The position numbers were made by a program, and so were the translations under genes. This document shows positions 1,616 through 30,219 of a stretch of DNA of 64,000 nucleotides, one piece after another. Location of the stretch: positions 1 through 64,000 of the forward strand of contig JAIPBD010000012.1 in NCBI GenBank assembly GCA_021739765.1. The letters are read 5' to 3'. The DNA is from Melioribacteraceae bacterium. Lineage in GTDB: Bacteria > Bacteroidota > Ignavibacteria > Ignavibacteriales > Melioribacteraceae. The notes under the pieces were generated by a model. The model was not told the origin of the DNA, searched no databases, and worked only from the letters and a program-made list of their open reading frames with translations. The first letter of the stretch is position 1, and every line of letters starts with the position of its first letter.

Positions 1616-1642
1616 ATACCCACTTAGAAAAGATAGAATTAT

Positions 1643-3528: not shown

Positions 3529-3530
3529 CT

Positions 3531-4940: not shown

Positions 4941-4943
4941 AAT

Positions 4944-6521: not shown

Positions 6522-6530
6522 GATCATAAC

Positions 6531-7970: not shown

Positions 7971-8080
7971 TTGGTTGAGGAAATGCCAAATAATTTTCAT
8001 GCAGCGAATACGGCTAATAATTTCATTTAGCTTAAGCTTTCACTAAATTGATTTATAAATTAATTAAGTAATGGCTCCAA

Positions 8081-14500: not shown

Positions 14501-17419
14501 AGGGGAATCATGAAACGCAAATGCTGATTGGAAAATCGGATTAATACTCTGATCTCGAATTGGCTGCACAGCTGTTACAACTTTGTCGAAAGGGACATCT
14601 TGATTATCGAACGCGTCGAGAGAATGTTTTTTTAACTGAGCAAATAATTCCCGTGTTGATAAGTTTTTGCTTAAATCCAGCCGGAAAACCACATTGTTCA
14701 CAAATGTGCCGAGAATTCCTTCTGTTTCTTTCCATCTTCGGTTCGCGATTGCAGAGCCAATCGCAATATCATCTTGCCCCGAATAACGGTGCATAAGAAT
14801 ACCGTAAGCCGCAAACATTGTTAAGAATAAAGTAACACCTTCTTTTTTGCTGAAATTTTCCAATTTACCGCAAAGTTCTGCCGGGAGTTCCAACCGAATA
14901 ATTTTTCCGTTAAAAGTTTGTTGTGCCGGGCGGGCGAAATCGAGTGGAAGCCGGAGAACTGGATTTGCCCCTTTAAGTCTGGTTTTCCAATAGTTTAATT
15001 GGTTTTCGAGAACTTCTCCACTCATCCACTTTCTTTGCCAGTAAGCAAAATCTTTGAATTGAATCGGGAGTTCCGGAAGTGAAACTTCAACACCTGAATC
15101 GAAGTGTTTATAAAAATCAAACATTTCTTTCATCAGGATATTGAACGACCATCCGTCGTGCACAAAATGATGCTCAACCTGGAACAAGGTAAATTCATTT
15201 TTCTCAATCTCAATTAGTTTCCACCGGATTAAGGGCAGCTCACTCAGATTAAAAGGAATCGCGAAGAAGTCATTCATCAAATTTTCTATGTTTTCGCCTT
15301 TTTGAAGAGAAGCTTTCTCGAGAGAAAAAGGTTTATATTCATGAACAACTTGGCAAGGTTTGCCATCAATTTCCGGAAATGTTGTTCTCAAAATTTCGTG
15401 TCGTTGAACGAGAGCATTTAGACTTTTTTCTAACGCATCGAAATTCAGCGTTCCCTTAAAATCAATCTTCGCCTGCGTTTGATACGCCCTGCTTGTTGGA
15501 TTTAATTTCTCAATAAACCACATTCGTTCTTGAGTAAAGGATATCGGAATTAAAGCACCATCCGGCGCCTGTGGAATTATTACCGAACTCCGTTTTGTCG
15601 TCTGGAGGATGGAATCAATTTTAGTCGCAAGTTTATCAAGTTTTGGAACTTGGAATATATATTTCAAACTAAATTCACACCGGAAATGCTGTCGGATTCG
15701 AGAGGCTAATTGAGTTGCTTGCAGAGAATTACCACCAAGATTGAAAAAATTATCATTACGACTTATCGTAGATTTTCCGAGTACATTTTTCCATATTTCA
15801 CACAGTTGCAATTCTGTTTCTGAATTTGGCGCTTCATACTCTTCAGATATAACAGAGACTTTTTGAGAAGGGTCCGGTAAAATGTCACGGTCTAATTTCC
15901 CGTTTGGAGTCAGAGGCATTTTTTGTAAAACGGTGAAGGATTCGGGAATCATATATTCCGGTAATGATTCCGACAGGGATTTACGAAGATTTTCTTCCGA
16001 ATAAAGTTGTGTTTCATTTACAACCAAATAAGCAGCAATCGATTTTGCTCCTGAATCGTTTTCTCTTACGATAACAGCGGCTTGTTTGATGTTTTTTAGA
16101 TCGCTTAGCATCGTTTCAATTTCTTCCAACTCGATTCTAAATCCACGAATTTTAACCTGATTATCAACGCGGCCGATAAAATCAATATTTCCATCGGGAA
16201 GAAGTTTTACTCGATCACCGGTTTTATATAATCGTTCATTTTCGTTGTTAGGATTTCTTCTAAAGGAAAATTTTTGATTTGTCAATTCTGGATTGTTTCT
16301 ATAGCCAAGCGCAACACCTTTTCCGCCTATATACAATTCGCCTTCTTTTGCTTCATTTCCATTCTCATCAAGAATATATACAATCGTGTTGTTGATCGCT
16401 TTCCCGATAGGGATGGAATTCACTTCAATATTTCGGATATCCGGGATTTGGTAACAACAAGTAAAAGTTGTGTTTTCGGTCGGCCCATAACCATTAATTA
16501 ATTGCGAGTTGGTCAATAATACTTGAGCTTTTTTAATGTGTTTTACCGAAAGGGCTTCACCGCCGGTAATTATAAATCGCACGGTTTTAATAACTTCGGG
16601 ATCTTCATCAATCAATAAGTTAAACAAGCTGGAGGTTAACCAAAGACAAGTGATATTGTTCGTTTTTATTGTTGATTTTAAAACATCAAATTCGGGAACT
16701 CTCCCAGGATATAAAACACATTTCGCTCCATTTAAAAGAGCACCCCAAATTTCAAATGTCGATGCATCAAAACTTGTTGGGGCAAGCTGAAGGAAAACAT
16801 GGTTTTCGCTAAACGGGAAATAATCGGTTTCAATTACTAATCGTACAATTCCCCGATGTGGTATTTCAACTCCGTTCGGTTTTCCCGTCGTTCCGGAAGT
16901 GTACATCACATAAGCTAAGTTTTCAGAAGAAAATGAATTGTTAATATTCGCGTCACTTTCCAAATCAATTTCTTTTTTATCGGAATCGAGATAACATATC
17001 TTAACATCTATTTTGCTAAGTGATTGCCGGTGAGCAATATTAGAAATAATTAATGACGCACCGGAATTGTTAATCATATACGAAATACGATTTGGCGGAT
17101 ATCTCAGATCGAGTGGGAGATAAGCCGCTCCCGTTTTCAGAATCGCTAATATTGAGATAATCAGCTCAAATGATTTCTCAAAGTATACACCAACTATTTC
17201 ACCTTCTTTAATCCCATTTTTGATAAGGTAGCGAGCTAATCTGTTGACCTCTTTATTTAACTCGTTGTATGATAAATTCTGATCAAGAAAGCTAAGTGCA
17301 ATTTTGTCGGGAAACTTTTTTACGCAGTCTTCAAAAATTTCAGTAACGCATTTTTCTAAGGGATTTATGAAAGATACACTGTTGGTCTGCGTATCTATTT
17401 TTCTGTCGATATCATTCAA
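11582..17419 (-). CDS. Two-module NRPS, A-T-C-A-T-TE
   Basis: Domains by residue: A1 about 20-510 (YTSGTTGKPNG at 173-183, GYGPTE at 310-315, NGKLDR at 506-511), T1 with phosphopantetheine Ser565, C about 620-1060 with HHFVHDG at 750-756, A2 about 1080-1582 (YTSGSTGLPKG at 1240-1250), T2 with Ser1632, and TE from about 1690 with Ser1759. The A1 pocket residues read D-A-F-W-I-G-G-T-F-K, the classical valine code. A2 reads D-I-T-K-I-G-S-A-G-K, nearest to Asp/Asn-type codes. The predicted product is a Val-X dipeptide or its transferred form; no epimerase is present. TE has GYSVSG rather than GxSxG. The start is TTG, just after an in-frame stop, so no longer N-terminus is possible. Confidence 0.93.
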   Translation of the reverse strand: MNDIDRKIDTQTNSVSFINPLEKCVTEIFEDCVKKFPDKIALSFLDQNLSYNELNKEVNRLARYLIKNGIKEGEIVGVYFEKSFELIISILAILKTGAAYLPLDLRYPPNRISYMINNSGASLIISNIAHRQSLSKIDVKICYLDSDKKEIDLESDANINNSFSSENLAYVMYTSGTTGKPNGVEIPHRGIVRLVIETDYFPFSENHVFLQLAPTSFDASTFEIWGALLNGAKCVLYPGRVPEFDVLKSTIKTNNITCLWLTSSLFNLLIDEDPEVIKTVRFIITGGEALSVKHIKKAQVLLTNSQLINGYGPTENTTFTCCYQIPDIRNIEVNSIPIGKAINNTIVYILDENGNEAKEGELYIGGKGVALGYRNNPELTNQKFSFRRNPNNENERLYKTGDRVKLLPDGNIDFIGRVDNQVKIRGFRIELEEIETMLSDLKNIKQAAVIVRENDSGAKSIAAYLVVNETQLYSEENLRKSLSESLPEYMIPESFTVLQKMPLTPNGKLDRDILPDPSQKVSVISEEYEAPNSETELQLCEIWKNVLGKSTISRNDNFFNLGGNSLQATQLASRIRQHFRCEFSLKYIFQVPKLDKLATKIDSILQTTKRSSVIIPQAPDGALIPISFTQERMWFIEKLNPTSRAYQTQAKIDFKGTLNFDALEKSLNALVQRHEILRTTFPEIDGKPCQVVHEYKPFSLEKASLQKGENIENLMNDFFAIPFNLSELPLIRWKLIEIEKNEFTLFQVEHHFVHDGWSFNILMKEMFDFYKHFDSGVEVSLPELPIQFKDFAYWQRKWMSGEVLENQLNYWKTRLKGANPVLRLPLDFARPAQQTFNGKIIRLELPAELCGKLENFSKKEGVTLFLTMFAAYGILMHRYSGQDDIAIGSAIANRRWKETEGILGTFVNNVVFRLDLSKNLSTRELFAQLKKHSLDAFDNQDVPFDKVVTAVQPIRDQSINPIFQSAFAFHDSPMESLELTDLEVKITEAISNGSSKFDLNVIAVPRFQKSAGDSKEKQFSGITLLWEYNIALFKEPTMQKMIEHFQNVLDEIVKNPDNQIDEIPYLNESEINEQIEKFNNTIVRYPENETILDLFEQQVLKNPNSTAVKFGNKILSYSELKSKSNQVANYLVEKKKIKSGELAGVYGNRSDLLMINIMGILKSGAAYLPIDPINPTSRIDFMLKESKIRILFCDDEYKADLKSRFPQIDIIGFDDFSDEDLSDKQPDVHPGSDSLAYVIYTSGSTGLPKGVKIPHQGLYNHIMWAKKIYIQDDKANFPLHSSISFDITITSLFAPICSGGTVVIYGNEDIGTITEKIIEDNLVDVIKLTPAHIQFLPIDKLGKSKIRKVIVGGDEFKVDLAEKIHSAFNGNVDVFNSYGPTETVAGCLLHKYDSTFNYQTSLPIGLPVENRQIYILDNNLKPVPFNVEGEIYISGAGISTGYLNDSEITKEKFVDNPFNNESKLYKSGDYGKRLSDGQIIFSGRKDGQVKVRGYRIELGEIESVLQSFEKIKECVVLALDDIYKTKRLIAYCVFYSGENPSNSELKVFLKKKLPEYMIPAQFIEIESIPLTANGKIDSKSLPNPDFDSPESETHYKEPTTREELQLAEIWQKVLKVDKIGLDSNYFDLGGHSLLAVELMNSINKSLKKKLPLSAVFQAPTIRDLNGFIKEFEKEQSRVIPIQTKGENIPLICISPHESVHFFYVISKFLGDEYPVYGFESRMELLDSSKEKTIEEIASEYIEELLKLRPKGPYLLLGYSVSGIIVFEMVKQLRKLGINDVRLLILDTVSLDINYNEFNRKSALVKSIFYTWEKINKRLYYYKLRINSEGIRTVLIGKIRNLFNGSKNHDEQVEAIDNFFADVTVLDIHRAAAEKYVPVKTKVDIEYFQATDRFISPIEKYFAFHPFIDGKFTIHQIPGDHNTVHKDDGGKLIAEKLKLIIQNRQF

Positions 17420-17568: not shown

Positions 17569-18732
17569 CTACTTTCTAAGCATATCATACACATTCGGAA
17601 ATCGGTATTTCTCCCGTTTCATATAGTTTTTTAGCAATCCAATGTTTGTTCTTACAAAATGTGGTCTGTTTAAGAGTTTGCTTATTTCGTAACATATTTT
17701 TCTGTTTTTTGATTCCTTTTCTAATTCAAATAATATGTCAGAATAACTCGCCCTTTTATAGGGATTCAGAAATATCTGTTTGATGTTTTTAACGGCGATA
17801 GGATTTTCGAATGAACCACATTTTTCGATGGACCCAACCGCTAATAAACCCAGCATTGTTCTGAGGCATTTTTCACAAACACCGCAATTTAGTACTGATT
17901 GACTATTCGCGAAACAAACTCTTAGGTTGTTAAGAGCAAATTCCGAGTTCGATACAAATCTGGTTTTTTCCAATCGACTTGCTTCGCAACCATCATGAAT
18001 TATTTCCATATTTTCCGAACTCCAAAGCGGATCTAAAACCGGATGCGAGCCGTAAGTTGTTGTTAGTTTGCCGTATGTATCATGTGAGCCAATATAAATT
18101 TTGCCAAATTCATCTGACAGCATGTGAGAAATCGAAGCAAGCACTGCACCATAATACATTTGTAAGCTTGAAAATTGTTGAAGGAATGAACGTACATTTG
18201 TTTCTACTTCAATTACCCTTTTGTTAAACTCGACTCCAATTCCACGAATTTGTTTGGAGGAGCTTCCGATTAAAAAATCATTGTTGAGGGGAATATCGAA
18301 TCCGCGAATAAAAATAATATCATCTATTTTTTTCTGGTTCTTTAAAAAAGTGTAATAAGCATCAATTCCTCCACTGAAAAATGAAGCAACTCGCGAAGAT
18401 TTCTCAATTTGATGTTTTCGAATATTAATCTTTTCAAATGAAATTTCAGCCATTTTCAGATGTGGATTCCACTGTTGATATATCGATTGTATATCACTCA
18501 AGCATGAAGAAAAGGATTGACTGATTTCACCTTCAATCTCAATGTTTGCATTTAATCTCATAGCCGGCAATAGGGCAGTTGCAATTAAAGCTTCGGTACT
18601 TTTTATAAACCGGGCATCCTTTGAGTAAAAATAAATTGGATAAATTTTTGCATCAATCTCAATGGTAAATTCTAATCGATGTCCGTCATCAAGTAAGTTA
18701 ACTGCATTAATTCTAAGTGGTTTTTTGTTCAT
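17569..18732 (-). CDS. QueC-like PP-loop paralogue 1 (function unknown)
   Basis: This is the last member of the nine-gene array and the closest to the NRPS. Residues 1-110 form a beta-rich N-terminal domain ending in IQSIYQQWNP. The HUP/PP-loop domain starts with SGGIDA at 120-125, where the usual final Ser of SGGxDS is Ala. GSHPVLDPLWSS (228-239) and DGCEASRLEK follow. Cys273, Cys283, Cys286 and Cys289 make a C-x9-C-x2-C-x2-C site like the zinc site of QueC. Related enzymes use ATP to adenylate a carboxylate or amide; the substrate here is unknown. The C-terminus is basic (REKYRFPNVYDMLRK). It has an intact frame and all motif cysteines, so it is probably functional. Confidence 0.82.
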   Translation of the reverse strand: MNKKPLRINAVNLLDDGHRLEFTIEIDAKIYPIYFYSKDARFIKSTEALIATALLPAMRLNANIEIEGEISQSFSSCLSDIQSIYQQWNPHLKMAEISFEKINIRKHQIEKSSRVASFFSGGIDAYYTFLKNQKKIDDIIFIRGFDIPLNNDFLIGSSSKQIRGIGVEFNKRVIEVETNVRSFLQQFSSLQMYYGAVLASISHMLSDEFGKIYIGSHDTYGKLTTTYGSHPVLDPLWSSENMEIIHDGCEASRLEKTRFVSNSEFALNNLRVCFANSQSVLNCGVCEKCLRTMLGLLAVGSIEKCGSFENPIAVKNIKQIFLNPYKRASYSDILFELEKESKNRKICYEISKLLNRPHFVRTNIGLLKNYMKREKYRFPNVYDMLRK

Positions 18733-18757
18733 AATAATTTGATTTTCATTCCCACAT

Positions 18758-19927
18758 TTACTTTTGAAGTATAAGATTGTATAATTTTGGAAATCGGTAC
18801 TTTTGTCTTTGAAACACGTTCTTTAGCAAGGTTTTGTTTGTTGTAATAAAATTGGGTCGATTAATAATTGTACTAAGAGCGAAACAAACATCCCGGTGTG
18901 TGCCTCTTTTCTCCAACTCATAAAGAATTTCACTATAAACGTAGCTCTTGAATGGATCCATTCTAATCGGATAAATATTTCGGACATCCAATTTTTTCTC
19001 GAACGAATTGCAAACATCCAATTTATTTAATGATAATAAACCCGTCATAGTTCGAACACATTTTTCACATTCTCCACAATTTAATGCGGATTTATTATTT
19101 GCTCCACAGACCCGTAAGTAATTTAGAATAAACTCGTCTCGGGAAATAAAGTCTAATTTCTGAAGACGACTGGCTTTGCACCCATAATAAATAACGTCAA
19201 GCGAATCTGAGCTCCAACGTGGTTCGAGGACAGCATGGGTTCCGATGTTATTTGTCAGGGAAGCATAATTTTCTGCCGATGAGATGATCACTCTACCAAT
19301 TTCGGAAGATAAAATGTGCCCGATACTACTTAACACGGCACTAAAAAAGTGAATAAGTTTTCTGTATCGCTTAAGGAACTGAACAACGTTTGTTTCGATT
19401 TCAATAACACGTTTATCATATCTTTTACCAATTTCCCTAGCTAGTTCTGATGTACGATTCAATAAATCAGAATTCTCCAGATTAATATCAAATCCGCGTA
19501 TCAAAATTAGGTCGTCAATCTCATCCTTTAATTTTAATAACGAGAAGTTAGCGTCTACACCTCCGCTGTAAAACAAGGCAGTTCTTTCTCGTTTCTTATT
19601 TAGGCTTTTTGATCTTCGTAAATTTTTCTGCACGGTTTCCGAAAGTTGTAAATGTGGATGCCATTGAGAATATATCGATTGAATTGTTGGCAGATTATCT
19701 AAAAACTTACCGTCTATTTCTTCCTCTAAATGAATGTGTTTTTTTGTTTTCATTGCCGGGTGGAGCAATAAAGAGACGAAGGCTTCCGGAGAAGGCGTTA
19801 ATTTGGCGTTATTACTTCTGAAGAATATGTGATGCTTTTCAGAATTAATTGTAATATCAAATTCTAAGAGATGGTTATCATCAGTTAGAATGATTGAATC
19901 AATTTTTATGTTTCTATTTTCTAACAA
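18758..19927 (-). CDS. QueC-like PP-loop paralogue 2 (function unknown)
   Basis: This copy is the most diverged in the otherwise conserved central block: where siblings have GSHPLLDPLWSS it reads GTHAVLEPRWSS (229-240), and the following DGCEASR becomes YGCKASR. The PP-loop is SGGVDA at 121-126, again with Ala in the last position, preceded by Tyr rather than Phe. The metal site is complete, with Cys274, Cys284, Cys287 and Cys290. These changes lie in the part expected to shape the substrate pocket, so it may have a different acceptor from its neighbours. It lies 25 bp upstream of paralogue 1. The family identity is secure by alignment with the other eight copies; no reaction can be assigned from sequence alone. 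Confidence 0.82.
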   Translation of the reverse strand: MLENRNIKIDSIILTDDNHLLEFDITINSEKHHIFFRSNNAKLTPSPEAFVSLLLHPAMKTKKHIHLEEEIDGKFLDNLPTIQSIYSQWHPHLQLSETVQKNLRRSKSLNKKRERTALFYSGGVDANFSLLKLKDEIDDLILIRGFDINLENSDLLNRTSELAREIGKRYDKRVIEIETNVVQFLKRYRKLIHFFSAVLSSIGHILSSEIGRVIISSAENYASLTNNIGTHAVLEPRWSSDSLDVIYYGCKASRLQKLDFISRDEFILNYLRVCGANNKSALNCGECEKCVRTMTGLLSLNKLDVCNSFEKKLDVRNIYPIRMDPFKSYVYSEILYELEKRGTHRDVCFALSTIINRPNFITTNKTLLKNVFQRQKYRFPKLYNLILQK

Positions 19928-19978
19928 AATTGTTCCTAATATTTTATTTTCTATTTTGCTAGAACTAAACTACATCAT

Positions 19979-21151
19979 TTATTCTCTAAATAATTTATAA
20001 ATTTTTGGAAAGCGGTATTTATATCGACGCAGGTAATTTTTGAGGCTATCTCTCAATTTTTCGGATAGGTTCCGGTTGTAGACTATTTGACTAATTTCAT
20101 AACACAGATCATAATTAGCCTCGTTTTTTTCTAACTCATATAAAATATTCGGATAAAATGAAGCAACAGATGAAGAAAGAACATTTCCGGAGTGTAAGCG
20201 ACGGATACTTTCCGTGCTCAATTTATTATTAAAAGTTTTACAATTGTCTAATTTGTCAATTGCTAAAAGACCGGCCATTGTTCTTATACATTTTTCACAT
20301 TCCCCACAGTTTAACCACAAATCACTTTTATTATTACATACTCTTAAGTTATTTAGAACGAATTCAAATTCTGAGACCATCCTTAATTTTTGTATTCTAT
20401 CAGCTTCTGAGCCGTCATTGATAACTTCTAAAAAATTTGTGCTCCATAAAGGATCTAAAAGTGGATGTGAACCCCAGGGAGTCAAGTCGTTATAAGTAGT
20501 TGAAGTAGGAATAAAAAAACTGCTAAATGTTCCCGAGAAAAGATGACCTATTGATGCCAGCATTGCGCCGTGAATAATTTTGGAGGGGAAAAATTTTGTA
20601 AGAAACGGTCTTAGGTTAGTTGAAATCTCAATAACATTCTTATCTAATTCCATGGCGGCGCTATGGATGTGATTCGTAATTTTCGTTGTTATTTTGGGGT
20701 CTTCGTTATCTTTTCCAAATCCTTTTATAAATAAAAGATCAGTAATTTGAGTTTTGTTTTTAAGAAGAGTATAAAATGAATCTAAACCACCACTGAAACA
20801 TGCTAATCCACGATCGGAAAGAGTTTTATTCTCGATCTGTTTAATATTGTTTGGAAGTGAGAATCTTCGCAATTGTTGATGGGGAAGCCAATTTATGAAG
20901 ATGGATTGGATTGTTTTGAGTGAATTATTAAAGCGGGAATCTACATCGCCTTCTGTGACAATATCTTGTCCGCTTTTCATGGCCGGTAATAATGCCATAA
21001 TAATATAAGCTTCGGTAGACGGCGTAAATGGATTGGATTTACTTCTAAAATAAAGATGATGAATCTTGGACTTTACAATTACATCAAACTCTAAATTTCG
21101 TCCTTCTTCCGTAAGTATAATATTTTTAATTTCAACTGATTTTTCAGACAC
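19979..21151 (-). CDS. QueC-like PP-loop paralogue 3 (function unknown)
   Basis: The PP-loop is the canonical SGGLDS at 120-125, followed by the strand LLFIKGFGKDNED, which departs from the GFDI seen in most siblings. WGSHPLLDPLWST at 226-238 and the cysteines at 272, 282, 285 and 288 are conserved. The tail (NYLRRYKYRFPKIYKLFRE) is nearly the same as that of paralogue 4, and both share SRFNNSL/SRFSKAL and PHQQ in the N-terminal domain, so paralogues 3 and 4 look like products of one duplication. The spacing to its neighbours is 51 and 64 bp with no obvious promoter. It is expected to be cytoplasmic because no signal or membrane segment is present. Confidence 0.82.
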   Translation of the reverse strand: MSEKSVEIKNIILTEEGRNLEFDVIVKSKIHHLYFRSKSNPFTPSTEAYIIMALLPAMKSGQDIVTEGDVDSRFNNSLKTIQSIFINWLPHQQLRRFSLPNNIKQIENKTLSDRGLACFSGGLDSFYTLLKNKTQITDLLFIKGFGKDNEDPKITTKITNHIHSAAMELDKNVIEISTNLRPFLTKFFPSKIIHGAMLASIGHLFSGTFSSFFIPTSTTYNDLTPWGSHPLLDPLWSTNFLEVINDGSEADRIQKLRMVSEFEFVLNNLRVCNNKSDLWLNCGECEKCIRTMAGLLAIDKLDNCKTFNNKLSTESIRRLHSGNVLSSSVASFYPNILYELEKNEANYDLCYEISQIVYNRNLSEKLRDSLKNYLRRYKYRFPKIYKLFRE

Positions 21152-21215
21152 CGAATTTAATCCTTGCTGATTTTAGGCCGTGCATTGTTAAAGAAGAAAT
21201 CCGACGACTAATTTT

Positions 21216-22388
21216 TTACACAGAAGTTCTTAACTTCTTATAAAGACCTGGAAATCGGTATTTATATCGACGCAAATAATTTTTTAGCACATCTTTAAAG
21301 ATTTGTGGGAAATTCGGCTTGTGGATCTTCTTACTAATTACATAACAGAATTCATAATTGGATTCGTTCTTTTCCAATTCGGGTAAAATTTCATTGTAAT
21401 ATGAAAAAATTGTTGGTTTAAACTTTGTGTTCTTAAGACCTTCCACACTCAACTTCTTGCTAAATGTTGTACACTTATCCAGTTTATTAATTCCCAAAAG
21501 TCCCGTCATTGTTCTGATACACTTCTCGCATTCACCACAGTTTAACCACGTTCCTTTATTTTGTGAGCAGACTCGCATATTGTTAAGAGCATAATCAGAT
21601 TCTGACACAAATTTAAGTTTCTGGATTCGCCCGGCGTCGGTGCCGTCATTTGCAATTTCTAAAGAATTACTGCTCCATAAAGGATCAAGAATAGGATGTG
21701 AGCCCCAAGCACCCAGGTATTGATATGTTACTGATGACGGGATTAATAATTTACTGAGACTTCCGGAAAGTAGATGTCCGACTGCAGCAAGCATTGCGCC
21801 ATGATGAATCCCGGAATAAACAAATTTGCTCAGAAATCTTCTCACATTAGATTTCATTTCTATCACATTCTTATCGAAGTTCGCGCCAATTTTATGAATT
21901 ATTTTCGATGTTTGCTCCGATACGACTTGATCATCTAAGCTTCTTTCGAATCCATTGAGGAATACTAAATCGTCAATCTCTTCCTTATTTTTAAGAAATG
22001 TGTAGAAGGAATCAACTCCGGCGCTAAAACAGGAGCCAACTCTATTCCGTTTTGTCTCGATATCCCGGCTTTCTATAATCGGGTTGGAAAGTTCGAATTT
22101 TTGAAATTGTTGGTGAGGATACCATTGCTGAAAAATTGTCTGAATTGTTGGTAATGCTTTAGAAAATCGCGAATCAATTTCTCCGTCTAACAAAATATTT
22201 GACCGTGTTGACATTGCGGGAATAATAGCAATCGCTATAAAGGCTTCGTTTGAAACTTTGAGTGGTACATTATTGCTTTGAAAATATAGAGGATGAACAG
22301 CAGAATCTATTTTTAAATCGAACTCTAACCTTAGTTTATCTTCAGTTAAGTTAATGTTTTCTATTTTAATTGAGTTCATACTTGCCAT
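21216..22388 (-). CDS. QueC-like PP-loop paralogue 4 (function unknown)
   Basis: This copy has an altered PP-loop, SAGVDS at 122-127, in which the second Gly-position residue of SGGxDS is Ala; this could weaken nucleotide binding or still be tolerated. The following block FLNGFERSLDDQ also lacks the GFDI consensus, as in paralogue 3. GSHPILDPLWSS and a complete CSQNKGTWLNCGECEKC metal site are kept. The Cys preceding the loop (GSCFSAG) is shared with paralogue 3 (LACFSGG) and no other member, supporting their sister relationship. Its start lies 5 bp from the stop of paralogue 5, the tightest junction in the array, which argues for cotranscription. Confidence 0.82.
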   Translation of the reverse strand: MASMNSIKIENINLTEDKLRLEFDLKIDSAVHPLYFQSNNVPLKVSNEAFIAIAIIPAMSTRSNILLDGEIDSRFSKALPTIQTIFQQWYPHQQFQKFELSNPIIESRDIETKRNRVGSCFSAGVDSFYTFLKNKEEIDDLVFLNGFERSLDDQVVSEQTSKIIHKIGANFDKNVIEMKSNVRRFLSKFVYSGIHHGAMLAAVGHLLSGSLSKLLIPSSVTYQYLGAWGSHPILDPLWSSNSLEIANDGTDAGRIQKLKFVSESDYALNNMRVCSQNKGTWLNCGECEKCIRTMTGLLGINKLDKCTTFSKKLSVEGLKNTKFKPTIFSYYNEILPELEKNESNYEFCYVISKKIHKPNFPQIFKDVLKNYLRRYKYRFPGLYKKLRTSV

Positions 22389-22393
22389 AATTT

Positions 22394-23581
22394 TTAATTA
22401 AGTCTTTTTGTTTTGGGGTTTCCCAAATAAAATATATCGTACAAATTCGGGAATTTATACTTCAATCGCTGAAGATATTTCTGCATGAGTTCCCGATTCG
22501 TTTTTATAAAACTTTGCTGATTGAGAATTGAGCTGACAGCATAACATAATTCGGGATATTCTCCGGTTTTTTCTAATTCATATAATATTTCAGTATAATA
22601 ATTTTTGATGTTGGGTCGCAATTTTAATTTTCGGATTCTTCCGATTTCAATAGGCTTTTTAAAAGAAGGATTGTTCGATAGTTTGTTAATGATCAGTAAT
22701 CCCAATTTTGTCCGGATGCATTTTTCACACCACTCGCAGTTTGTTAAAAAAGAGGTGTGGGCGTTAAAACATACTCTAAGATTATTGACCGCAAAGTCAG
22801 AATCCGAAATTGTTTTTAGTTTTTCCAGACGGGTTGATTCACAACCATCATGAACTATTTGCATACTCTCAGAACTAAACATTGGATCCAGCAAAGGATG
22901 AGAGCCATGAGGAAGAATCCGGGCGTATGAATCGCCTGCGGGAATAAATACTTTCCGGATTCGATTTGAAAGCAGATGGGCGATGCTTGAAAGAAAAACT
23001 CCGAAATGAATTCTCAAATTCACGTATCGGTTTAGAAACAATTTCAAATTGGTTTCGATTACAATGACGTTCTTATTGAAGTGATTCCCGATTTTTTGAA
23101 CGAGCTCCAATGAATTTTTTAACAATACTTCATTATTCAATTTTATATCGAAACCTTTAATAAAAATTATATCGGTTATTTCGGATTGATTTTTTATCAG
23201 AGAATAGTAAGAGTCAATTCCACCACTTGAAAATGTCGCGCTCTTTAGATTTTTGGGCGGATTCTCTCTTTTAAGTGGAATATTCTCAATTGGAAACTTT
23301 TTTAAGTCTTCTTCAGGAAACCATTGCCGCAGGATCGATTGAATATCTGGAAGTGAAGATATTAATTTTCCACTGACGGCTTCTTCGATTTCAATTTCGG
23401 AGCCTAATTTCATAGCGGGTAAAAGAGTCATTAACACAAATGCTTCCGCTGATGGAGTTAAAACCGCGCCTTCAACTTGAAAATAAATTCTTGTAGAAAT
23501 TGAATTGGCGATGATATCAAATTCAAGCCTGTGGCCATCCTTCAATAATTGAATAGATTCTATCTTAATCGAGTTTGACAT
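22394..23581 (-). CDS. QueC-like PP-loop paralogue 5 (function unknown)
   Basis: The PP-loop SGGIDS is at 119-124 and the adjacent strand DIIFIKGFDIKLNNE fits the family consensus. The metal site is slightly changed: the run LTNCEWCEKC has one extra residue in the first spacer and Trp in place of Gly, but keeps all four cysteines. HGSHPLLDPMFSSESMQ has Phe where most copies have Trp. DGCESTRLEKL is shared with paralogue 8. The C-terminal tail after FPNLYDIFYLG is a few residues longer than in siblings, giving 395 residues. All catalytic-looking elements are present, so this is a plausible active enzyme of unknown substrate. Confidence 0.82.
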   Translation of the reverse strand: MSNSIKIESIQLLKDGHRLEFDIIANSISTRIYFQVEGAVLTPSAEAFVLMTLLPAMKLGSEIEIEEAVSGKLISSLPDIQSILRQWFPEEDLKKFPIENIPLKRENPPKNLKSATFSSGGIDSYYSLIKNQSEITDIIFIKGFDIKLNNEVLLKNSLELVQKIGNHFNKNVIVIETNLKLFLNRYVNLRIHFGVFLSSIAHLLSNRIRKVFIPAGDSYARILPHGSHPLLDPMFSSESMQIVHDGCESTRLEKLKTISDSDFAVNNLRVCFNAHTSFLTNCEWCEKCIRTKLGLLIINKLSNNPSFKKPIEIGRIRKLKLRPNIKNYYTEILYELEKTGEYPELCYAVSSILNQQSFIKTNRELMQKYLQRLKYKFPNLYDIFYLGNPKTKRLN

Positions 23582-23610
23582 ATTTCGGGAAGGCCTTTTT
23601 ATATATTCCG

Positions 23611-24762
23611 CTAATTTTGGGTCGTGCGACTAATTTTACGATACAGATTGGGGTAGCGATATTTTTGTTTTCGTAAATAATTTTTTAATAAAATAATATT
23701 GGACTGGAGAAACATGGGTTTGTAAATAGCCGAGCTAATCGCGTAACATATTTCCGGATAAGAGCCAATTTTCTCTAATTCATATAACAATTCAGTATAC
23801 ACAAATCTATTATAGGGAGAAATGTTAAGCTTCCTTAATGCAGCAATGTTTATTTCAGAACTGTCAATTCCATTTACCGCCAGCAATCCCAATGAGGTTC
23901 GGATGCACTTTTCACACTTTCCGCAGTTTACCATCGAATCATTATCTGCAAAACAAACTCTTAATTTGCTAAGATCAACTCCAGATTTATTTAAATATTT
24001 GATCTTCTCCAATCTTGATGATTCATTTCCATGATGAACAATCTCAAAGTTTTTACTGCTCCACATCGGATCGAGCAGCGGGTGAGAACCGAATGGAAGA
24101 AGATCACCGTAGGAATAGGTGGAAGGAATATAAATTCGACCGATTTCTTTGGATAAAAGATGACCGATCGCGGATAGTAAAGCGCCGTGAAAAATTTTGA
24201 TGCCAACAAACTTATTTAGGAATAACTTTACATTTGTATCAATTTCAATTACACTTTTATTAAATCGTTTAGCACTTTCATAAATTAGCGCGGAAGATTT
24301 TTCTAACAGGAAGGTGTTACTTAATCCGATGTCGAATCCTTTGATAAACACAAAATCGGTTATGTGTTCATCTTTCTTTTTGAAAGTATAATAAGAATCA
24401 ATCCCACCGCTAAAAAAAGTTGCCGTTCTCGATCTCGTATCCACAGTTGTGCTAACGGGCGTAACATTCTCAATCTCTACTTGCTGGAAATTACGACTTG
24501 GGAACCACTGCTTATAGATCGATTGAATTAATGGGAGTTGATTATAAAATTTCTCATCAACTTCGCCTTCAATAATAATTTTACTGTTACTCAACATAGC
24601 CGGTAGTAATAGAATCCCGATAAACGCCTCTGTTGTGGGTGCAAGAGTGGCGCCCCGACATTTGAAATAAACATCAAATCTTTTTGAATTTACATTCACA
24701 ACAAACTGTAGTTTGTGCCCATCGTTACCATGTGAAATCGAATCTATCTTAATAATATTCAT
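23611..24762 (-). CDS. QueC-like PP-loop paralogue 6 (function unknown)
   Basis: At 383 residues this is the shortest intact member. It has the canonical SGGIDS at 118-123, then FVFIKGFDIGLSN. FGSHPLLDPMWSS and VHHGNESSRLEK correspond to the blocks of its neighbours, with Gly-Asn-Glu in place of Gly-Cys-Glu as in paralogue 7. The metal site CFADNDSMVNCGKCEKC is intact. Residues 76-92 (QLPLIQSIYKQWFPSRN) close the N-terminal domain. Both this gene and paralogue 5 keep the full PP-loop Ser, while flanking copies 7 and 8 have Ala, so the two variants alternate in blocks along the array rather than at random. No leader or membrane segment is seen. Confidence 0.82.
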   Translation of the reverse strand: MNIIKIDSISHGNDGHKLQFVVNVNSKRFDVYFKCRGATLAPTTEAFIGILLLPAMLSNSKIIIEGEVDEKFYNQLPLIQSIYKQWFPSRNFQQVEIENVTPVSTTVDTRSRTATFFSGGIDSYYTFKKKDEHITDFVFIKGFDIGLSNTFLLEKSSALIYESAKRFNKSVIEIDTNVKLFLNKFVGIKIFHGALLSAIGHLLSKEIGRIYIPSTYSYGDLLPFGSHPLLDPMWSSKNFEIVHHGNESSRLEKIKYLNKSGVDLSKLRVCFADNDSMVNCGKCEKCIRTSLGLLAVNGIDSSEINIAALRKLNISPYNRFVYTELLYELEKIGSYPEICYAISSAIYKPMFLQSNIILLKNYLRKQKYRYPNLYRKISRTTQN

Positions 24763-24788
24763 ATGTTTTGCTTTTGAGTAAGAGAGAA

Positions 24789-25946
24789 TTAGGATTTAAT
24801 GTGTTCTGAAAACATAGAATATAGTTTAGGTAAACGATACTTTAATTTTCTAAGATAATTTTTTATTAATATATAATTGTTTTTAATTAGATGTGGTTTA
24901 AATAATAATGAACTTATTTCATAAGAAATGTCATTGAACTGAGGGTGTTTGTCCAACTCCCACAAAAGTTCCGAATGGTATATCTTTCTCGACGGAGTAA
25001 TGTCAATCTTTCTTATCGCTTTTAAATCAATATCGTTCTGAAATGAATTTGATTTCTCCAACACACCCAATAGCTTTAATGAAATCATCGTCCTTAAACA
25101 TTTTTCACATTTGCAACAATTTAACTTTGACTCACTCTTCCCGAAACAAACTCTTAAGTTATCAAGCACAAATTGGGAAGTGGTGATTTTTTTTAACTTT
25201 TGTAATCGACTTGCCTCATTTCCATCGTGGATAAATTCGATTTTGTCTGAATTCCAAAGTGGATCCAGCAACGGATGCGTACCATCCGGAATTAAGTTTG
25301 CATAAGTCTCGGCTGAAGGAATTAAAACCGTTCCAATCTGATTTGTGAGCAGATGAGCAACGGAGGCAAGAAGCGCGCCGTGACTTTTCCCGTAAGTAAT
25401 AAACTTATCTAAAAATGGTCTTGCGTTAGTCTCAATTTCAATAACATTTTTGTTGAACTCTTTTCCGACTCTTTTTACAAGTTCCGAACCCTCGTCCAAC
25501 ATCCCTTTCTTTTCGAGTTTAACATCATAGCCGCGAATAAAAATGATATCGGTAATAATGTCCATGTTTTTTAACAACGTATAATAAGCGTCTACACCGC
25601 CGCTAAAAAAAGCACCGACCCTTTCAGATTTTTTAGTTTCATCATCCCTGCATGCCAAATGATTCACAGGGAAAGGCTTTAATTTTTGCTGAACAAACCA
25701 CTGTGTATAAATTGTCTGAACTGTTGGAAGGGAGGAAACAAATTTAGAGCTAAGTTTAGCATCAATTTCAATTTTGCTGCCTGTAACCAATGCCGGAAGT
25801 ATTGACAATATTGTCATTGATTCCGGGTTGGGAATTAGTTCAACCTCTTTAGACCTAAAAAAAATATGAAAAAGCTTAGAGGCGATTCGAATATCGTATT
25901 CGCAAGAGTGCCCATTATCTTTAACAATTATAGATTCTATTTTCAT
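24789..25946 (-). CDS. QueC-like PP-loop paralogue 7 (function unknown)
   Basis: SGGVDA at 115-120 is the Ala-type PP-loop. The helix FITYGKSHGALLASVAHLLT is shared almost word for word with paralogue 8, as is the doubled cysteine in the metal site (LNCCKCEKC here, FNCCTCEKC in paralogue 8), so these two are close sisters. DGTHPLLDPLWNSD has Thr and Asn where others have Ser. The four ligand cysteines of the C-x9-C-x2-C-x2-C pattern remain, with one additional Cys between them. It is 6 bp from paralogue 8 and 26 bp from paralogue 6. The N-terminal domain begins very close to the start, with almost no leader residues before KIESII. Confidence 0.82.
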   Translation of the reverse strand: MKIESIIVKDNGHSCEYDIRIASKLFHIFFRSKEVELIPNPESMTILSILPALVTGSKIEIDAKLSSKFVSSLPTVQTIYTQWFVQQKLKPFPVNHLACRDDETKKSERVGAFFSGGVDAYYTLLKNMDIITDIIFIRGYDVKLEKKGMLDEGSELVKRVGKEFNKNVIEIETNARPFLDKFITYGKSHGALLASVAHLLTNQIGTVLIPSAETYANLIPDGTHPLLDPLWNSDKIEFIHDGNEASRLQKLKKITTSQFVLDNLRVCFGKSESKLNCCKCEKCLRTMISLKLLGVLEKSNSFQNDIDLKAIRKIDITPSRKIYHSELLWELDKHPQFNDISYEISSLLFKPHLIKNNYILIKNYLRKLKYRLPKLYSMFSEHIKS

Positions 25947-25952
25947 GTTTTA

Positions 25953-27134
25953 TTAATCTCGGTCGATGGTTCTTTTTATCAACAATCTATAAAATTTTGG
26001 AAAACGATATTTGTATTTCTGCATACTGTTTTTTAGTAATAAAAAGTTCGATTTTAGAAAATGTGGTTTATTCATAATCTTACTTATTGCGGAACAAATT
26101 TTTTCATTCCCCGGAAATTTTTCTAATTCATAAAGCAGTGTAGAATAGCCTGCTTTTTTGTTCGGAGTAACATCAATTTTATAAATATTTTTTAAATCCA
26201 ACGGTTTCTTAAAGGACTTGCATTTTTCCAGAACACCCAGTGCATGTAATCCAATCATTGTTCGCACACATTTTTCGCAAGTACAACAATTAAATTCTTT
26301 TTGGTTTTCTTTTTTTGCAAAACAAACGCGAAGATTATTTAATGCAAATTCGTTTTTGCTGATAACTTTCAATTTCTCTAATCTTGTAGATTCACATCCA
26401 TCATGAATAATTTTTATTCGATCAGAACTCCACATCGGATCTAAAAGCGGGTGAGAGCCATAAGGAACCAACGCCCCATAAGGATCCGTCGAGGGTATAA
26501 AAAACATACCGATTTCATTTGTTAATAAATGACTGACGGATGCAAGAATTGCTCCATGACTTTTACCGTATGTGATAAATTTATCAATAAATAAGCGGGC
26601 ATTTGTATCGATTGTGATTACATTTTTATCGAATTCTCGTCCTGCCTTTGCGATTAATTCTGATGATTTTTCAAGCATATATTTATTCGATTGGTGTATA
26701 TCGAAACCTCGAATAAAAACTATATCAGTTAAGATTGAATTGTTTTTTATCAGAGTATAAAATGCGTCCACACCACCACTAAAAAATGTTGCGATTCTTT
26801 TCCCCTTTTGCTGCTCGTTCTTACGAATTGGAAGATTAGTAATAGAAAATTCTTGTAGTTGCTGGTGGATAAACCATTGACGATAAATAGACTGAATATT
26901 TTGCAAATTGGAATGAAACGATTCGCTTACGGTTTCAGTGGTTTCGATTTGTTTTTTTAGAACCATTGCCGGAAGCAATAAAAGAGATAGAATCGATTCC
27001 ATATTCGGATTTAATCGGATCGAATCGCTTTCGAAATAAATATTGTAAGAGTTTGCGTCGTAATGAATTGTGCAGTCGAGCCTTAGTCCATCTTCGGAAA
27101 GAATTGGAGATTCAACAACAATTGGAGTGTCCAT
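25953..27134 (-). CDS. QueC-like PP-loop paralogue 8 (function unknown)
   Basis: The PP-loop is SGGVDA at 119-124, with DIVFIRGFDIHQSN after it. YGSHPLLDPMWSS and HDGCESTRLEKL are conserved. The first cysteine spacer is longer than in siblings (CFAKKENQKEFNCCTCEKC), giving C-x12-C or C-x11-C depending on which Cys of the pair binds metal. Sequence sharing with paralogue 7 over residues near 190-210 and the CC pair mark a recent local duplication. Immediately upstream lies a 281-bp gap that contains the decayed tenth copy, so this gene may be transcribed from paralogue 9 through that remnant or from a promoter inside it. Confidence 0.82.
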   Translation of the reverse strand: MDTPIVVESPILSEDGLRLDCTIHYDANSYNIYFESDSIRLNPNMESILSLLLLPAMVLKKQIETTETVSESFHSNLQNIQSIYRQWFIHQQLQEFSITNLPIRKNEQQKGKRIATFFSGGVDAFYTLIKNNSILTDIVFIRGFDIHQSNKYMLEKSSELIAKAGREFDKNVITIDTNARLFIDKFITYGKSHGAILASVSHLLTNEIGMFFIPSTDPYGALVPYGSHPLLDPMWSSDRIKIIHDGCESTRLEKLKVISKNEFALNNLRVCFAKKENQKEFNCCTCEKCVRTMIGLHALGVLEKCKSFKKPLDLKNIYKIDVTPNKKAGYSTLLYELEKFPGNEKICSAISKIMNKPHFLKSNFLLLKNSMQKYKYRFPKFYRLLIKRTIDRD

Positions 27135-27151
27135 AATTTATTATTCCATAA

Positions 27152-27394
27152 AAATAAGGTCTTTCTAGAATATTGTTAATTGCAGAACACAATTCACGAT
27201 ATTTGTTTCAATTCATTTTGTCCTTTTCGATAATTCGTCTTCCGATGTACAAATTAACTCGGAAGTGAATTGGCAAAAACTTCTATTTTCCAAACGGACT
27301 TAAAATCCTTCTAAAAGTATTACGTCAGTTATATCTTAATTTTCTTCAGCTTATCAAAAAGTGAATCAATCCTATCATTTAAAAAAACACCGCT
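27152..27394 (-). pseudogene. Decayed remnant of a tenth QueC-like paralogue
   Basis: Translating the minus strand of this gap gives pieces that align with the array. At 27394-27353 one frame reads SGVFLNDRIDSLFDK, matching the PP-loop region GAFFSGGIDSFYTLL. After a one-base shift, 27332-27303 reads ITDVILLEGF, matching ITHLIFINGF of paralogue 9. In the same frame, with the GF Asp codon now TAA, TSELICTSEDELSKRTK, a stop and IETN follow at 27251-27201, spaced exactly as in paralogue 9. A change of frame then gives ELCSAINNILERPYF (to about 27152), matching the C-terminal PELCYAVSSIL region. The stretch between (residues ~180-330), the N-terminal domain and the tail are lost. It cannot encode a working protein. 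Confidence 0.85.
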
Positions 27395-27415
27395 TAACAG
27401 TTAGCTCAAGCAAAA

Positions 27416-28609
27416 TCAATTTTGAGCAAAATATTGTTTCCAAACAAGATAAAGTTTTGGGTAACGATACTTTTGCCGGCGAAAATATTTCTTCAAAATT
27501 TCTGTATTTCTTTTCAACAAATGTGGTTTGAAGAGCAGAGTGCTTATAGCATACGCAACTTCCGGATGTTTGTTTTCTTTATCAAGTGCATACAAAATCT
27601 CAGTATAGAATGGTCTTTTCGAATCTGTAAGTTCAATTTTAAGAATATCCTTTACATCGATTTTTGTATTAAAAGATTTACAATCCTCTAAGGCGTTTAT
27701 TGCCATAAGTCCGGTAATGGTTCTAACACATTTTTCACATTTACCGCAGTTCATAACTGTATCACTTTTTGCATAACAGACCCGTATATGTTCAGATGCA
27801 AATTTTGATTTCATTACTATCGGTAATTTCTCCATTCTGGAAGCTTCGCATCCATCATGAATGTATTCAACCTTATCGGAACTCCAGAGTGGATCGAGCA
27901 GAGGGTGCGAGCCAACATTTCCCATTTCTCCGTATGAATCTGCTGCCGGAAGAAAAATTTTATTAATTTCACTTGATAATAAATGACCGGTAGCGGCTAA
28001 AAAGGAACCATGATGAATGGGAAATGAAACGTAAGTCTTCATAAAATCTCTTAGGTTTGTCTCAATCTCTATCACTTTTTTCCCGAATTCTTTTCCACAT
28101 GCTCGAATCAATTCTGAAGTTTTCTCCTCGATGCTGGATTTTCCTAAAGTTACATCAAAGCCATTTATAAATATTAAGTGAGTAATCTCTTCTTGATTTT
28201 TTAAAAGTGTATAGAAAGAATCTATGCCGCCGCTGAAAAATGCACCAACTCCTTGGGCTAAATTTTCTTCATCCGCCCTGGAACCGATGTTGCTTAGATC
28301 AACATGTTTATACTGTCTATGAATATAAGATTGTGCATAAATCGATTGAACCGCCGGCATTGCTCGCATGAACTTGTTGGAGACTTCACCATCGAATTCA
28401 ATTTTGTATTTGAGTTCCATGCCTGCAAGTAAAGTGAGCGCGAGAAAAACCTCCGGATTCGGAGTTAGTTCAACGTCATTCGATTTAAAGTATAGAGGAA
28501 ATTTTCTCGAGTTTACGAATACATCAAACGTGATTTTGTGACCTGAATCAGATGACGAAATGTCTTTTACTTTGATTACATTGCCCGTGTTCATAGTATC
28601 ATTTTCCAA
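27416..28609 (-). CDS. QueC-like PP-loop paralogue 9 (function unknown)
   Basis: This is the first intact member of the array in transcription order and the longest (397 residues). It carries SGGIDS at 126-131, then LIFINGFDVTLGKS, VGSHPLLDPLWSS, HDGCEASRMEKL and a full metal site in CYAKSDTVMNCGKCEKC. ATGHLLS replaces the ASIGHLLS helix of siblings. The N-terminal domain has LAGMELKYKIEFDGEVS where others have LPAM. An internal Met at residue 6 could be the true start, since the first five residues are not conserved. It lies 48 bp downstream of the sulfotransferase-like pair. The neighbouring remnant aligns best with this copy, so it probably arose by duplication of this gene. Confidence 0.82.
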   Translation of the reverse strand: MENDTMNTGNVIKVKDISSSDSGHKITFDVFVNSRKFPLYFKSNDVELTPNPEVFLALTLLAGMELKYKIEFDGEVSNKFMRAMPAVQSIYAQSYIHRQYKHVDLSNIGSRADEENLAQGVGAFFSGGIDSFYTLLKNQEEITHLIFINGFDVTLGKSSIEEKTSELIRACGKEFGKKVIEIETNLRDFMKTYVSFPIHHGSFLAATGHLLSSEINKIFLPAADSYGEMGNVGSHPLLDPLWSSDKVEYIHDGCEASRMEKLPIVMKSKFASEHIRVCYAKSDTVMNCGKCEKCVRTITGLMAINALEDCKSFNTKIDVKDILKIELTDSKRPFYTEILYALDKENKHPEVAYAISTLLFKPHLLKRNTEILKKYFRRQKYRYPKLYLVWKQYFAQN

Positions 28610-28657: not shown

Positions 28658-29401
28658 CTATTTAGCAAGCCACCTTTGCTTAACTTTTTGATTTTCTTCA
28701 TCAGTCCAAAAATGTTTAGCTAATTTTTGCGATTGAATAAATTCCAAATATTCAGAAGGAAGGTTTATTTCATTGCAGAACTGTTTGTAAAAATCTCCGT
28801 AAGTTCTGTTTTCCCCAACATTTTCAATCTTCCACTCGGTAATTTTATATCCGACGAAATCCGAGATTATTTCCAGCTGTTTTTCTTTTTCCAGATCCAA
28901 TCTATATACCAATACTCGAATGTTGCCTCTTTTATAAGTTTTCCACTTTATATCTTTTGGGAATTCTTCTGCAAAAACATCTATTCCGGTTAACGGTTTT
29001 AGATGCTTATCGAACCAATGAATGGCTTTATTGTTATCATATTTTTGAAGAAATATATTTCTCACTTCCTCAATATTCCAAGACTTTGATATAAATCTTG
29101 CTCCCGTTACCATTTCAAAATTTGTAAAAAATGCGGAGAGGTTTCTTGTAATCGGTTCTCGTATCGGAGTAATAACAATGATTGGACGTCGCAACAATTT
29201 CCTAAGCTGAATGTGTTTCCAGTCATACTTTCCAATCATGCTTGGGAAGTGAGCATGAATTACCTGGTTTGGGACGAAATGCGAAAGAGTTGCTTCAACC
29301 GATTTGGAGCCGACTTTACCCATTTGATAGATTAATATTGGTGGTCGAGCTAACAGTTTGGATATAATAAGTTTAAATTCACCGATAAATGGAATATACA
29401 A
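28658..29401 (-). CDS. P-loop sulfotransferase-like protein (copy A)
   Basis: The 247-residue product opens, after a short hydrophobic stretch, with ILIYQMGKVGSKSVEATL, which fits the 5'-phosphosulfate loop of PAPS-dependent sulfotransferases. TPIREPITRNLSAFF fits the 3'-phosphate loop, with an Arg and a downstream Ser. Proteins of this kind occur in capsule clusters and are sometimes labelled putative capsular polysaccharide synthesis proteins. The likely reaction is sulfate transfer from PAPS to a sugar or small acceptor. In this copy the loop has Lys-Ser where copy B has Thr-Ser. It is followed by paralogue 9 after 14 bp of leader sequence beyond its stop plus a short gap, and preceded by copy B. 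Confidence 0.72.
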   Translation of the reverse strand: MYIPFIGEFKLIISKLLARPPILIYQMGKVGSKSVEATLSHFVPNQVIHAHFPSMIGKYDWKHIQLRKLLRRPIIVITPIREPITRNLSAFFTNFEMVTGARFISKSWNIEEVRNIFLQKYDNNKAIHWFDKHLKPLTGIDVFAEEFPKDIKWKTYKRGNIRVLVYRLDLEKEKQLEIISDFVGYKITEWKIENVGENRTYGDFYKQFCNEINLPSEYLEFIQSQKLAKHFWTDEENQKVKQRWLAK

Positions 29402-29475: not shown

Positions 29476-30219
29476 TTATTTTTTTTGCCATCTCCGTTTT
29501 TCAGACTCAAGTTCTTCTTTCGTCCAAAAATGTGTGGCCAGTTTCGATGAATAGATATAATCTAAATATTCCTTTGGTAGTGACAATTGTTTGCAAAAAT
29601 TGATATAGAACTCGCCATAATCTTTTTCTTCGGCAACGTTGCTCATTTTCCACTCGGGAATATTAATTCCGAGGAATTCGGAAATCAATTCCAATTGTTT
29701 TTGTTTCTCGAGGTCCAAACGGTAAACTAAAATTCTGGTTTTCCCTTTTTTATAAACTTTCCATTTTTCTTTTTTGGGAAACTGCTCAGAGTAAACATCT
29801 ATTCCGCTAATCGGTTTTAGTTCCTTATCGAACCAACCAATCCCTTTGTGATGCCCATAACGTTTAAGATAAAGCTCGCGAACTTCTTCATAAGTCCATT
29901 CTTTACTTGAAAAATCGACACCAATAATTTTTTTGAAATTATGAAAGAACGCTGAAAGATTTCTGCTAACCGGTTCCCGAATTGGGGAGATAATATTAAT
30001 CGGCATCGAAAGAGCTTTTCGGATCGCGACATTTTTTAACTCATAATTATTAACCATAGATGGAGAATGCGCGTGTTCAATCGTATTTGGAAGGTAATGT
30101 GATAATGTCTCATACAATGAGGTTGAACCAACTTTTCCCATCTGATAAATTAGAATCGGAGGCTTGTCGAAGACCTTCGATAAAACAACTTTAAAACCTT
30201 TAATATATGGTATTGCCAA
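29476..30219 (-). CDS. P-loop sulfotransferase-like protein (copy B)
   Basis: This is the same length as copy A (247 residues) and aligns with it throughout, so the pair is a tandem duplication. QMGKVGSTS at 26-34 is the presumed 5'-phosphosulfate loop, closer to the usual consensus than in copy A, and REPVSRNLSAFF at 81-92 is the 3'-phosphate loop. HAHSPSMV at 49-56 gives a conserved His-rich segment that could include the catalytic base. The C-terminal third shares KELKPISGIDVYSEQFPK-like and LVYRLDLEK blocks with copy A. Retention of both copies beside the PP-loop array suggests two sulfation sites or two acceptors. PAPS synthesis genes are not in the window. Confidence 0.74.
   Translation of the reverse strand: MAIPYIKGFKVVLSKVFDKPPILIYQMGKVGSTSLYETLSHYLPNTIEHAHSPSMVNNYELKNVAIRKALSMPINIISPIREPVSRNLSAFFHNFKKIIGVDFSSKEWTYEEVRELYLKRYGHHKGIGWFDKELKPISGIDVYSEQFPKKEKWKVYKKGKTRILVYRLDLEKQKQLELISEFLGINIPEWKMSNVAEEKDYGEFYINFCKQLSLPKEYLDYIYSSKLATHFWTKEELESEKRRWQKK

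Follow-up and report, generated by a model that had tools for sequence, protein, structure and literature searches.

Nine tandem QatC-like PP-loop proteins next to capsule genes in a Melioribacteraceae bacterium: candidate enzymes for tailoring acid groups of a surface glycan

We analysed the first 64,000 nucleotides of contig JAIPBD010000012.1 from a Melioribacteraceae bacterium (assembly GCA_021739765.1; this whole stretch is hereafter called the window), in which nine paralogous genes, Q1 to Q9, lie in tandem and encode diverged PP-loop proteins with a QatC-like build. We tentatively propose that these enzymes, amplified locally and diversified by position, use ATP to tailor the acid groups of a glycan or glycopeptide at the cell surface. 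Each of them probably modifies a surface polymer, because the array adjoins the genes for the biosynthesis of such a polymer and because many relatives of the family accompany sugar-modifying enzymes.

An earlier note, made from the DNA letters alone, had described nine intact genes of 383-397 codons running head to tail on the minus strand. The list of open reading frames (ORFs) bears this out, the nine ORFs filling exactly 17569-28609:

17569 to 18732, minus strand: Q1, QueC/QatC-fold PP-loop protein, 387 aa, SGGIDA
18758 to 19927, minus strand: Q2, 389 aa, the copy whose motifs are changed most (SGGVDA, THA, LEPRWSS, YYGCKASR)
19979 to 21151, minus strand: Q3, 390 aa
21216 to 22388, minus strand: Q4, 390 aa, SAGVDS; nearest copy Q3 (51% identity)
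22394 to 23581, minus strand: Q5, 395 aa
23611 to 24762, minus strand: Q6, 383 aa
24789 to 25946, minus strand: Q7, 385 aa, SGGVDA; nearest copy Q8 (51% identity)
25953 to 27134, minus strand: Q8, 393 aa, SGGVDA
27189 to 27356, minus strand: the relic, a decayed tenth copy lying between Q8 and Q9; hidden Markov model match with E 8.2e-6, 5 stops, at least 2 frames
27416 to 28609, minus strand: Q9, 397 aa, the first-transcribed copy; TTG start uncertain; AlphaFold2 model with pLDDT 93.6

Intergenic gaps measure 5-64 bp, the single exception being the 281 bp between Q8 and Q9. This interval contains the decayed tenth copy, which had been overlooked: one frame of it aligns to residues 119-182 of Q2, and a second frame aligns, weakly, to about residues 314-360 of several copies. 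Q1 to Q9 share pairwise identities of 39-51% (38.7-51.5) along almost their whole length; the likeness of the copies is beyond chance, and the array is confirmed as real. No further copy of the family beyond the nine and the relic was found in a search of the 4.54-Mb genome. In a maximum-likelihood tree of 95 sequences the nine copies formed one clade with support of 100/100, and the array therefore arose from genes duplicated locally, which then diverged for a long time and of which at least one was lost.

Several residues (given here in Q9 numbering) are invariant in all nine copies: Gly128 and Asp130 of the PP-loop, Arg258, Lys261, Asn287, Lys293 and four Cys. The PP-loop reads S-G/A-G-x-D throughout, Q4 having the SAG variant. 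The four Cys noticed earlier are present in every copy, with a spacing of C-x9-11-C-x2-C-x2-C where x9-12 had been given for the first interval, and the Trp of the IQSIYxQW motif is found in 8/9 copies, Q9 having Ser.

The AlphaFold2 model of Q9 predicted a HUP/PP-loop fold with a QueC-type four-Cys site, which presumably holds zinc; comparison with solved structures agrees with the assignment made from the letters. The N-terminal domain, previously described as beta-rich, does contain strands but is modelled as an alpha/beta domain (three strands, helix, two short strands, helix). In the structure comparison, the nearest solved relative over the full length was QatC (9y01_B), with 295 residues aligned over model positions 5-362, against 179 residues for QueC, although the match list barely tests the parts of the model outside 116-330. 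The model and its alignment with QatC also predict N-terminal and C-terminal extensions around the QueC core, as in QatC; when the N-terminal domain alone was the query, QatC was not among the matches listed. Profile alignment with hhalign matched the family to QatC over 233 columns with a probability of 72.8, whereas the best alignment with QueC covered the zinc site only (hhalign probabilities are pairwise values). The label QueC-like stands for the fold and the four-Cys site; as nearest relative, QatC/QueC should be named in place of QueC by itself.

None of the nine copies reaches any Pfam or NCBIfam cut-off. For QueC (PF06508, cut-off 22 bits), three copies scored 14.2, 16.5 and 18.1 bits and six had no match at E<=1; for QatC (NF041925, cut-off 280 bits), one copy scored 12.1 bits and eight had no match at E<=1. 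The NCBIfam profile for N-acetyl sugar amidotransferases of the WbpG type gave no match at E<=1 in 9/9, and PF00733 (asparagine synthetase) none in 9/9, Q9 alone showing a weak NCBIfam asn_synth match (E 0.09). The combination used to recognise QueC, a HUP/PP-loop fold with SGGxDS and four Cys, was found with Ala as the last Ser in 4/9 copies and SAG in 1/9. Compared with QueC itself (7-cyano-7-deazaguanine synthase, PDB 3bl5), the array copies add N- and C-terminal parts, and the base-reading Tyr/Asp pair (YPDC) of QueC aligns, through QatC, with Pro/Gly in the family, as judged from two moderate alignments. QatC belongs to the qatABCD anti-phage system (PDB 9y01) and, unlike the array, has qatA/qatD-type neighbours, whereas many relatives of the array adjoin glycan enzymes. 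Cap9 of type IV CBASS (PDB 9nto) differs in its median length of about 185 residues and in keeping the base-reading motif, and the WbpG-type amidotransferases, likewise PP-loop enzymes of surface-polysaccharide biosynthesis with a Cys motif, have CxxC(x)6CxC, unlike the array (both from PMC13329287).

The family is unnamed and spread across many phyla, and all 19 plasmid records of relatives are annotated 'hypothetical protein', as the earlier note had stated. It was found in 0/58 relatives of the same family or order and in only 2/394 other genomes sampled across the phylum (at most four candidates scored per genome); the locus was probably acquired, or is seldom retained. A profile scan of genome contigs listed 79 of 555 relatives. 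The 49 genomes chosen for having the family (50 of the 79 loci) hold 1-7 matches each, fragments included, and in the class of Okeania genome G448 the family occurred in 15/291 genomes. Copy numbers elsewhere were 1 in the phylum sample and at most 3 in the Okeania-class sample, except for 7 in G448; these are lower bounds, since samples were drawn and at most four and six candidates, respectively, were scored per genome, and the phylum scoring recovers just 4/9 copies in the array's own genome. In the Okeania class, genomes G557 and G546 have tandem triplets, and G448 has four matches, one of them broken, within about 6 kb. A ninefold array was not seen in any other genome searched (the 58 relatives, the phylum sample, the 49 family carriers and the Okeania class), in keeping with the earlier note, by which such an array is not known to have been described, and no title or abstract on the family, its link to PF04230 or the ninefold array was found in the openly licensed literature. 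At loci L127 (7458-11521) and L128 (7870-11634), tandem triplets of distant members stand beside a glycyl-tRNA synthetase alpha gene, with a class I lysyl-tRNA synthetase gene also close to the triplet in L127. A Sulfuricurvum genome carries two loci (L004 and L005) on two contigs; their match scores are equal, their genes are arranged alike, and both adjoin succinate-dehydrogenase-like genes.

The main new clue came from the genes next to the array's relatives. We ordered the genes of 102 loci, of which the genome scan supplied 77 and genome searches 20, the other 5 being plasmid regions; L005 and L010 were left out as near-duplicates of L004 and L009. The detectors were single-sequence or home-made profiles and missed some genes (for example in L001 and L096). 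Genes of the polysaccharide pyruvyl transferase type (PF04230) made up 19/201 of the genes at a distance of one from the family gene, 12/344 at two or three and 0/701 further away, and were present in 31/102 loci. Because the distance detector had been built from neighbours, a separate PF04230 profile check was run. Among 122 same-strand neighbours within 200 bp (85 loci), PF04230 was the commonest assignment with 31, followed by Asn_synthase and GT2 with 10 each (E<=0.001), and in two relatives (L019 and L067) the family protein is fused to a PF04230 domain that scores above its cut-off. A two-gene unit on Azospirillum brasilense plasmid p4 consists of a PF04230 gene and a family gene. AsnL, a 600-residue protein with an asparagine-synthetase domain, was detected in 12 loci, each time immediately adjoining the family gene; in 8 loci PF04230, AsnL and the family lie within three genes. 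The AsnL sequences that were read lack the N-terminal Cys2 of glutamine-dependent enzymes. Asparagine-synthetase-like enzymes without Cys2, such as beta-lactam synthetases, join other nucleophiles. Such Cys2-free partners, often together with PF04230, were seen at L016 (3151-4941), L133 (10079-11881) and L135 (6681-8486), and at L001 (7862-9934) a GT2-PF04230 fusion protein lies immediately upstream of the family gene. These neighbours uphold, for many relatives, the sugar setting that had been suspected. PF04230 tells most among them, and it lay out of sight of the earlier note because the window has no such gene; it is a partner of the relatives, as neighbour or fused domain, and not a homologue. 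The linkage to PF04230 and AsnL is the new element, and it makes the substrate class testable.

The surroundings of the array comprise the following features:

10575 to 11510, minus strand: GT2 glycosyltransferase (PF00535), at the downstream end of the minus-strand run
11582 to 17419, minus strand: non-ribosomal peptide synthetase (NRPS), read as A-T-C-A-T-TE (two AMP-binding, one Condensation, two carrier and one thioesterase domain)
28658 to 29401, minus strand: NKWYS-family protein (PF10364, putative capsular polysaccharide synthesis)
29476 to 30219, minus strand: second NKWYS-family protein (PF10364)
30255 to 31016, minus strand: 4'-phosphopantetheinyl transferase (PF01648)
31439 to 59637, plus strand: capsule/exopolysaccharide cluster (SLBB protein, Wzc-like protein, ABC-2 and Wzt-type exporter, Wzy_C, Glycos_transf_4, Wzi)
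59718 to 63911, minus strand: single-module A-KR-T-TE protein resembling NRPS and polyketide synthases, at the far edge of the capsule cluster

The minus-strand run thus reads, in order, phosphopantetheinyl transferase, two NKWYS genes, Q9, the relic, Q8 to Q1, NRPS and GT2. The plus-strand capsule cluster includes 10 glycosyltransferases and two asparagine synthetases that retain Cys2. Read by eye against specificity codes, the NRPS A domains would accept about Val and then Asp/Asn, an assignment not used as evidence; the term sulfotransferase-like for the NKWYS proteins is likewise tentative, taken from the earlier note and a PAPS-loop motif. Proteins of the A-KR-T-TE type could load and reduce a keto acid. 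On the other side, 821-10561 adjoins the array with polysaccharide-degradation genes (DUF1961, GH88, two sulfatases, GH9) and an oligogalacturonate-lyase-like protein with a Por_Secre_tail domain. A qat-like defence system was considered and rejected: of the window's ORFs, the 46 that reach 150 aa give no QatA- or TatD-like (qatA/qatD) Pfam match. The idea of an APS/PAPS supply for the NKWYS genes was likewise put aside.

Enzymes of the PP-loop class cleave ATP to AMP and pyrophosphate via an adenylated intermediate. PF04230 enzymes leave a pyruvate ketal that bears a free carboxylate, and an amide- or conjugate-forming partner is therefore plausible. In the model we propose, the nine AMP-forming enzymes, with their HUP/PP-loop fold, presumed zinc site and QatC-like build, would act on a glycan or glycopeptide of the cell surface whose biosynthesis the neighbouring capsule, NRPS and NKWYS genes would carry out. 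An acid group of the glycan would first be converted to an acyl-adenylate, which a nitrogen nucleophile would then capture to give an amide; the group could belong to a uronic acid or, in the case of relatives, could be the carboxylate that a PF04230 pyruvyl transferase leaves. Within the window the place of the pyruvate-ketal carboxylate as substrate would fall to uronic acids or the NRPS product, and each of the nine diverged copies may serve another position or sugar. The earlier idea of ATP-dependent acyl or amide transfer enzymes with different acceptors, acting on carrier-bound or sugar carboxylates, is partly supported as a whole, and its chemistry is plausible.

A number of observations weigh against this proposal. 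PF04230 was found in 0/46 window ORFs of at least 150 aa, the AsnL gene is likewise absent from the window, and the only PF04230 match above cut-off in the genome lies outside it, on contig C36. Across the family, 42/102 loci are without any of six markers within six genes (an overcount, since the marker-less L096 carries annotated glycosyltransferases and a pyruvyl transferase), and some members adjoin succinate-dehydrogenase-like, complex-I-like or tRNA-synthetase genes; with both in view, the family may not share one function throughout. Within the array, the SGGxDS loop reported earlier keeps its last Ser in only 5/9 copies, with Ala instead in Q1, Q2, Q7 and Q8; the HP of the HPLLDPLWSS block is kept in 8/9, Q2 having lost the proline (HA); and Trp196, present in 77/95 rows of the family, is found in 0/9 array copies. 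Some copies may thus be altered or inactive. The array copies break 17/59 family-conserved columns, whereas random nine-sequence sets (200 draws) averaged 8.5 and nine of 13 actinobacterial rows, as a comparison set, broke 11; as random sets went up to 19, the excess is only modest. To judge from the alignment, these departures, including the loss of Trp196, fit a changed specificity, short of proof.

We considered whether the enzymes might instead tailor the NRPS product, converting a peptide acid, either released or still bound to its carrier, to an amide or nitrile in the way that ToyM/QueC, ArtA and PesC treat other substrates. An NRPS Condensation domain lies within three genes of the family in L068, L071 and the Gloeothece plasmid locus L092, which also has two annotated sulfotransferases. 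Yet a dipeptide synthetase has no obvious need for nine tailoring enzymes, and a Condensation domain was detected in just 3/102 loci as against the 31 with PF04230-type genes, so that we regard this explanation as rather unlikely. At locus L071 (3-13959, Tomitella) four family genes occur together with an NRPS and an acyltransferase of the wax ester synthase/DGAT type; it is perhaps a lipopeptide or glycolipid cluster.

The similarity to QatC over most of its length raised the question of protein modification, in which each copy would attach a small group to a partner protein's N-terminus, the activity of Cap9 and the one proposed for QatC. QatC forms a complex with QatB, whose N-terminal glycine motif is essential (PMC13279940), and qatB has no Pfam model (PMC13329287). 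Here, however, gaps of at most 64 bp, plus the 281 bp occupied by the relic, leave no room for a partner gene, QatA- and TatD-like proteins were missing from the ORFs searched, and relatives most often have PF04230, asparagine-synthetase-like and GT2 proteins next to them; we hold protein modification to be doubtful.

Neutral or decaying duplication, with redundant copies, could account for the relic, the motif losses of Q2 and the Ala that replaces the last Ser of the PP-loop in four copies, but it is improbable given nine full-length ORFs at 39-51% identity with the four Cys, Lys261 and the PP-loop Asp in 9/9. The intact, conserved ORFs suggest long purifying selection. Finally, making or using 7-deazaguanine as QueC does is very improbable and QueC-type chemistry unlikely, in spite of the shared fold and four-Cys site, since all nine copies fall under the PF06508 cut-off, the base-reading pair aligns with Pro/Gly and the genome already has a separate QueC (C4:191410-192033).

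Returning to the tailoring of glycan acids, a broader and more speculative version, to which we give distinctly less credence, is that the family forms a carbohydrate-acid branch of QueC-fold enzymes that, with PF04230 and asparagine-synthetase-like partners, would turn pyruvate-ketal or uronic carboxylates into amides, amino-acid conjugates or nitriles, the nine copies of this genome together marking a single large glycopeptide, possibly sulfated, with a pattern that depends on position. The known roles of the QueC fold concern nucleobases and, lately, protein modification, and the reaction of QatC is still unresolved (PMC13279940). If the proposal is true, carbohydrate acids would be a third line for this fold, beside nucleobase synthesis and protein deazaguanylation. 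All nine copies score below the Pfam and NCBIfam cut-offs, so annotation may overlook a class of glycan-tailoring steps. Gene order and fusions tie a widespread QatC-like family to polysaccharide pyruvyl transferases and thereby give it a concrete, testable substrate class, and the ninefold array offers a natural set of variants from which substrate specificity can be read.

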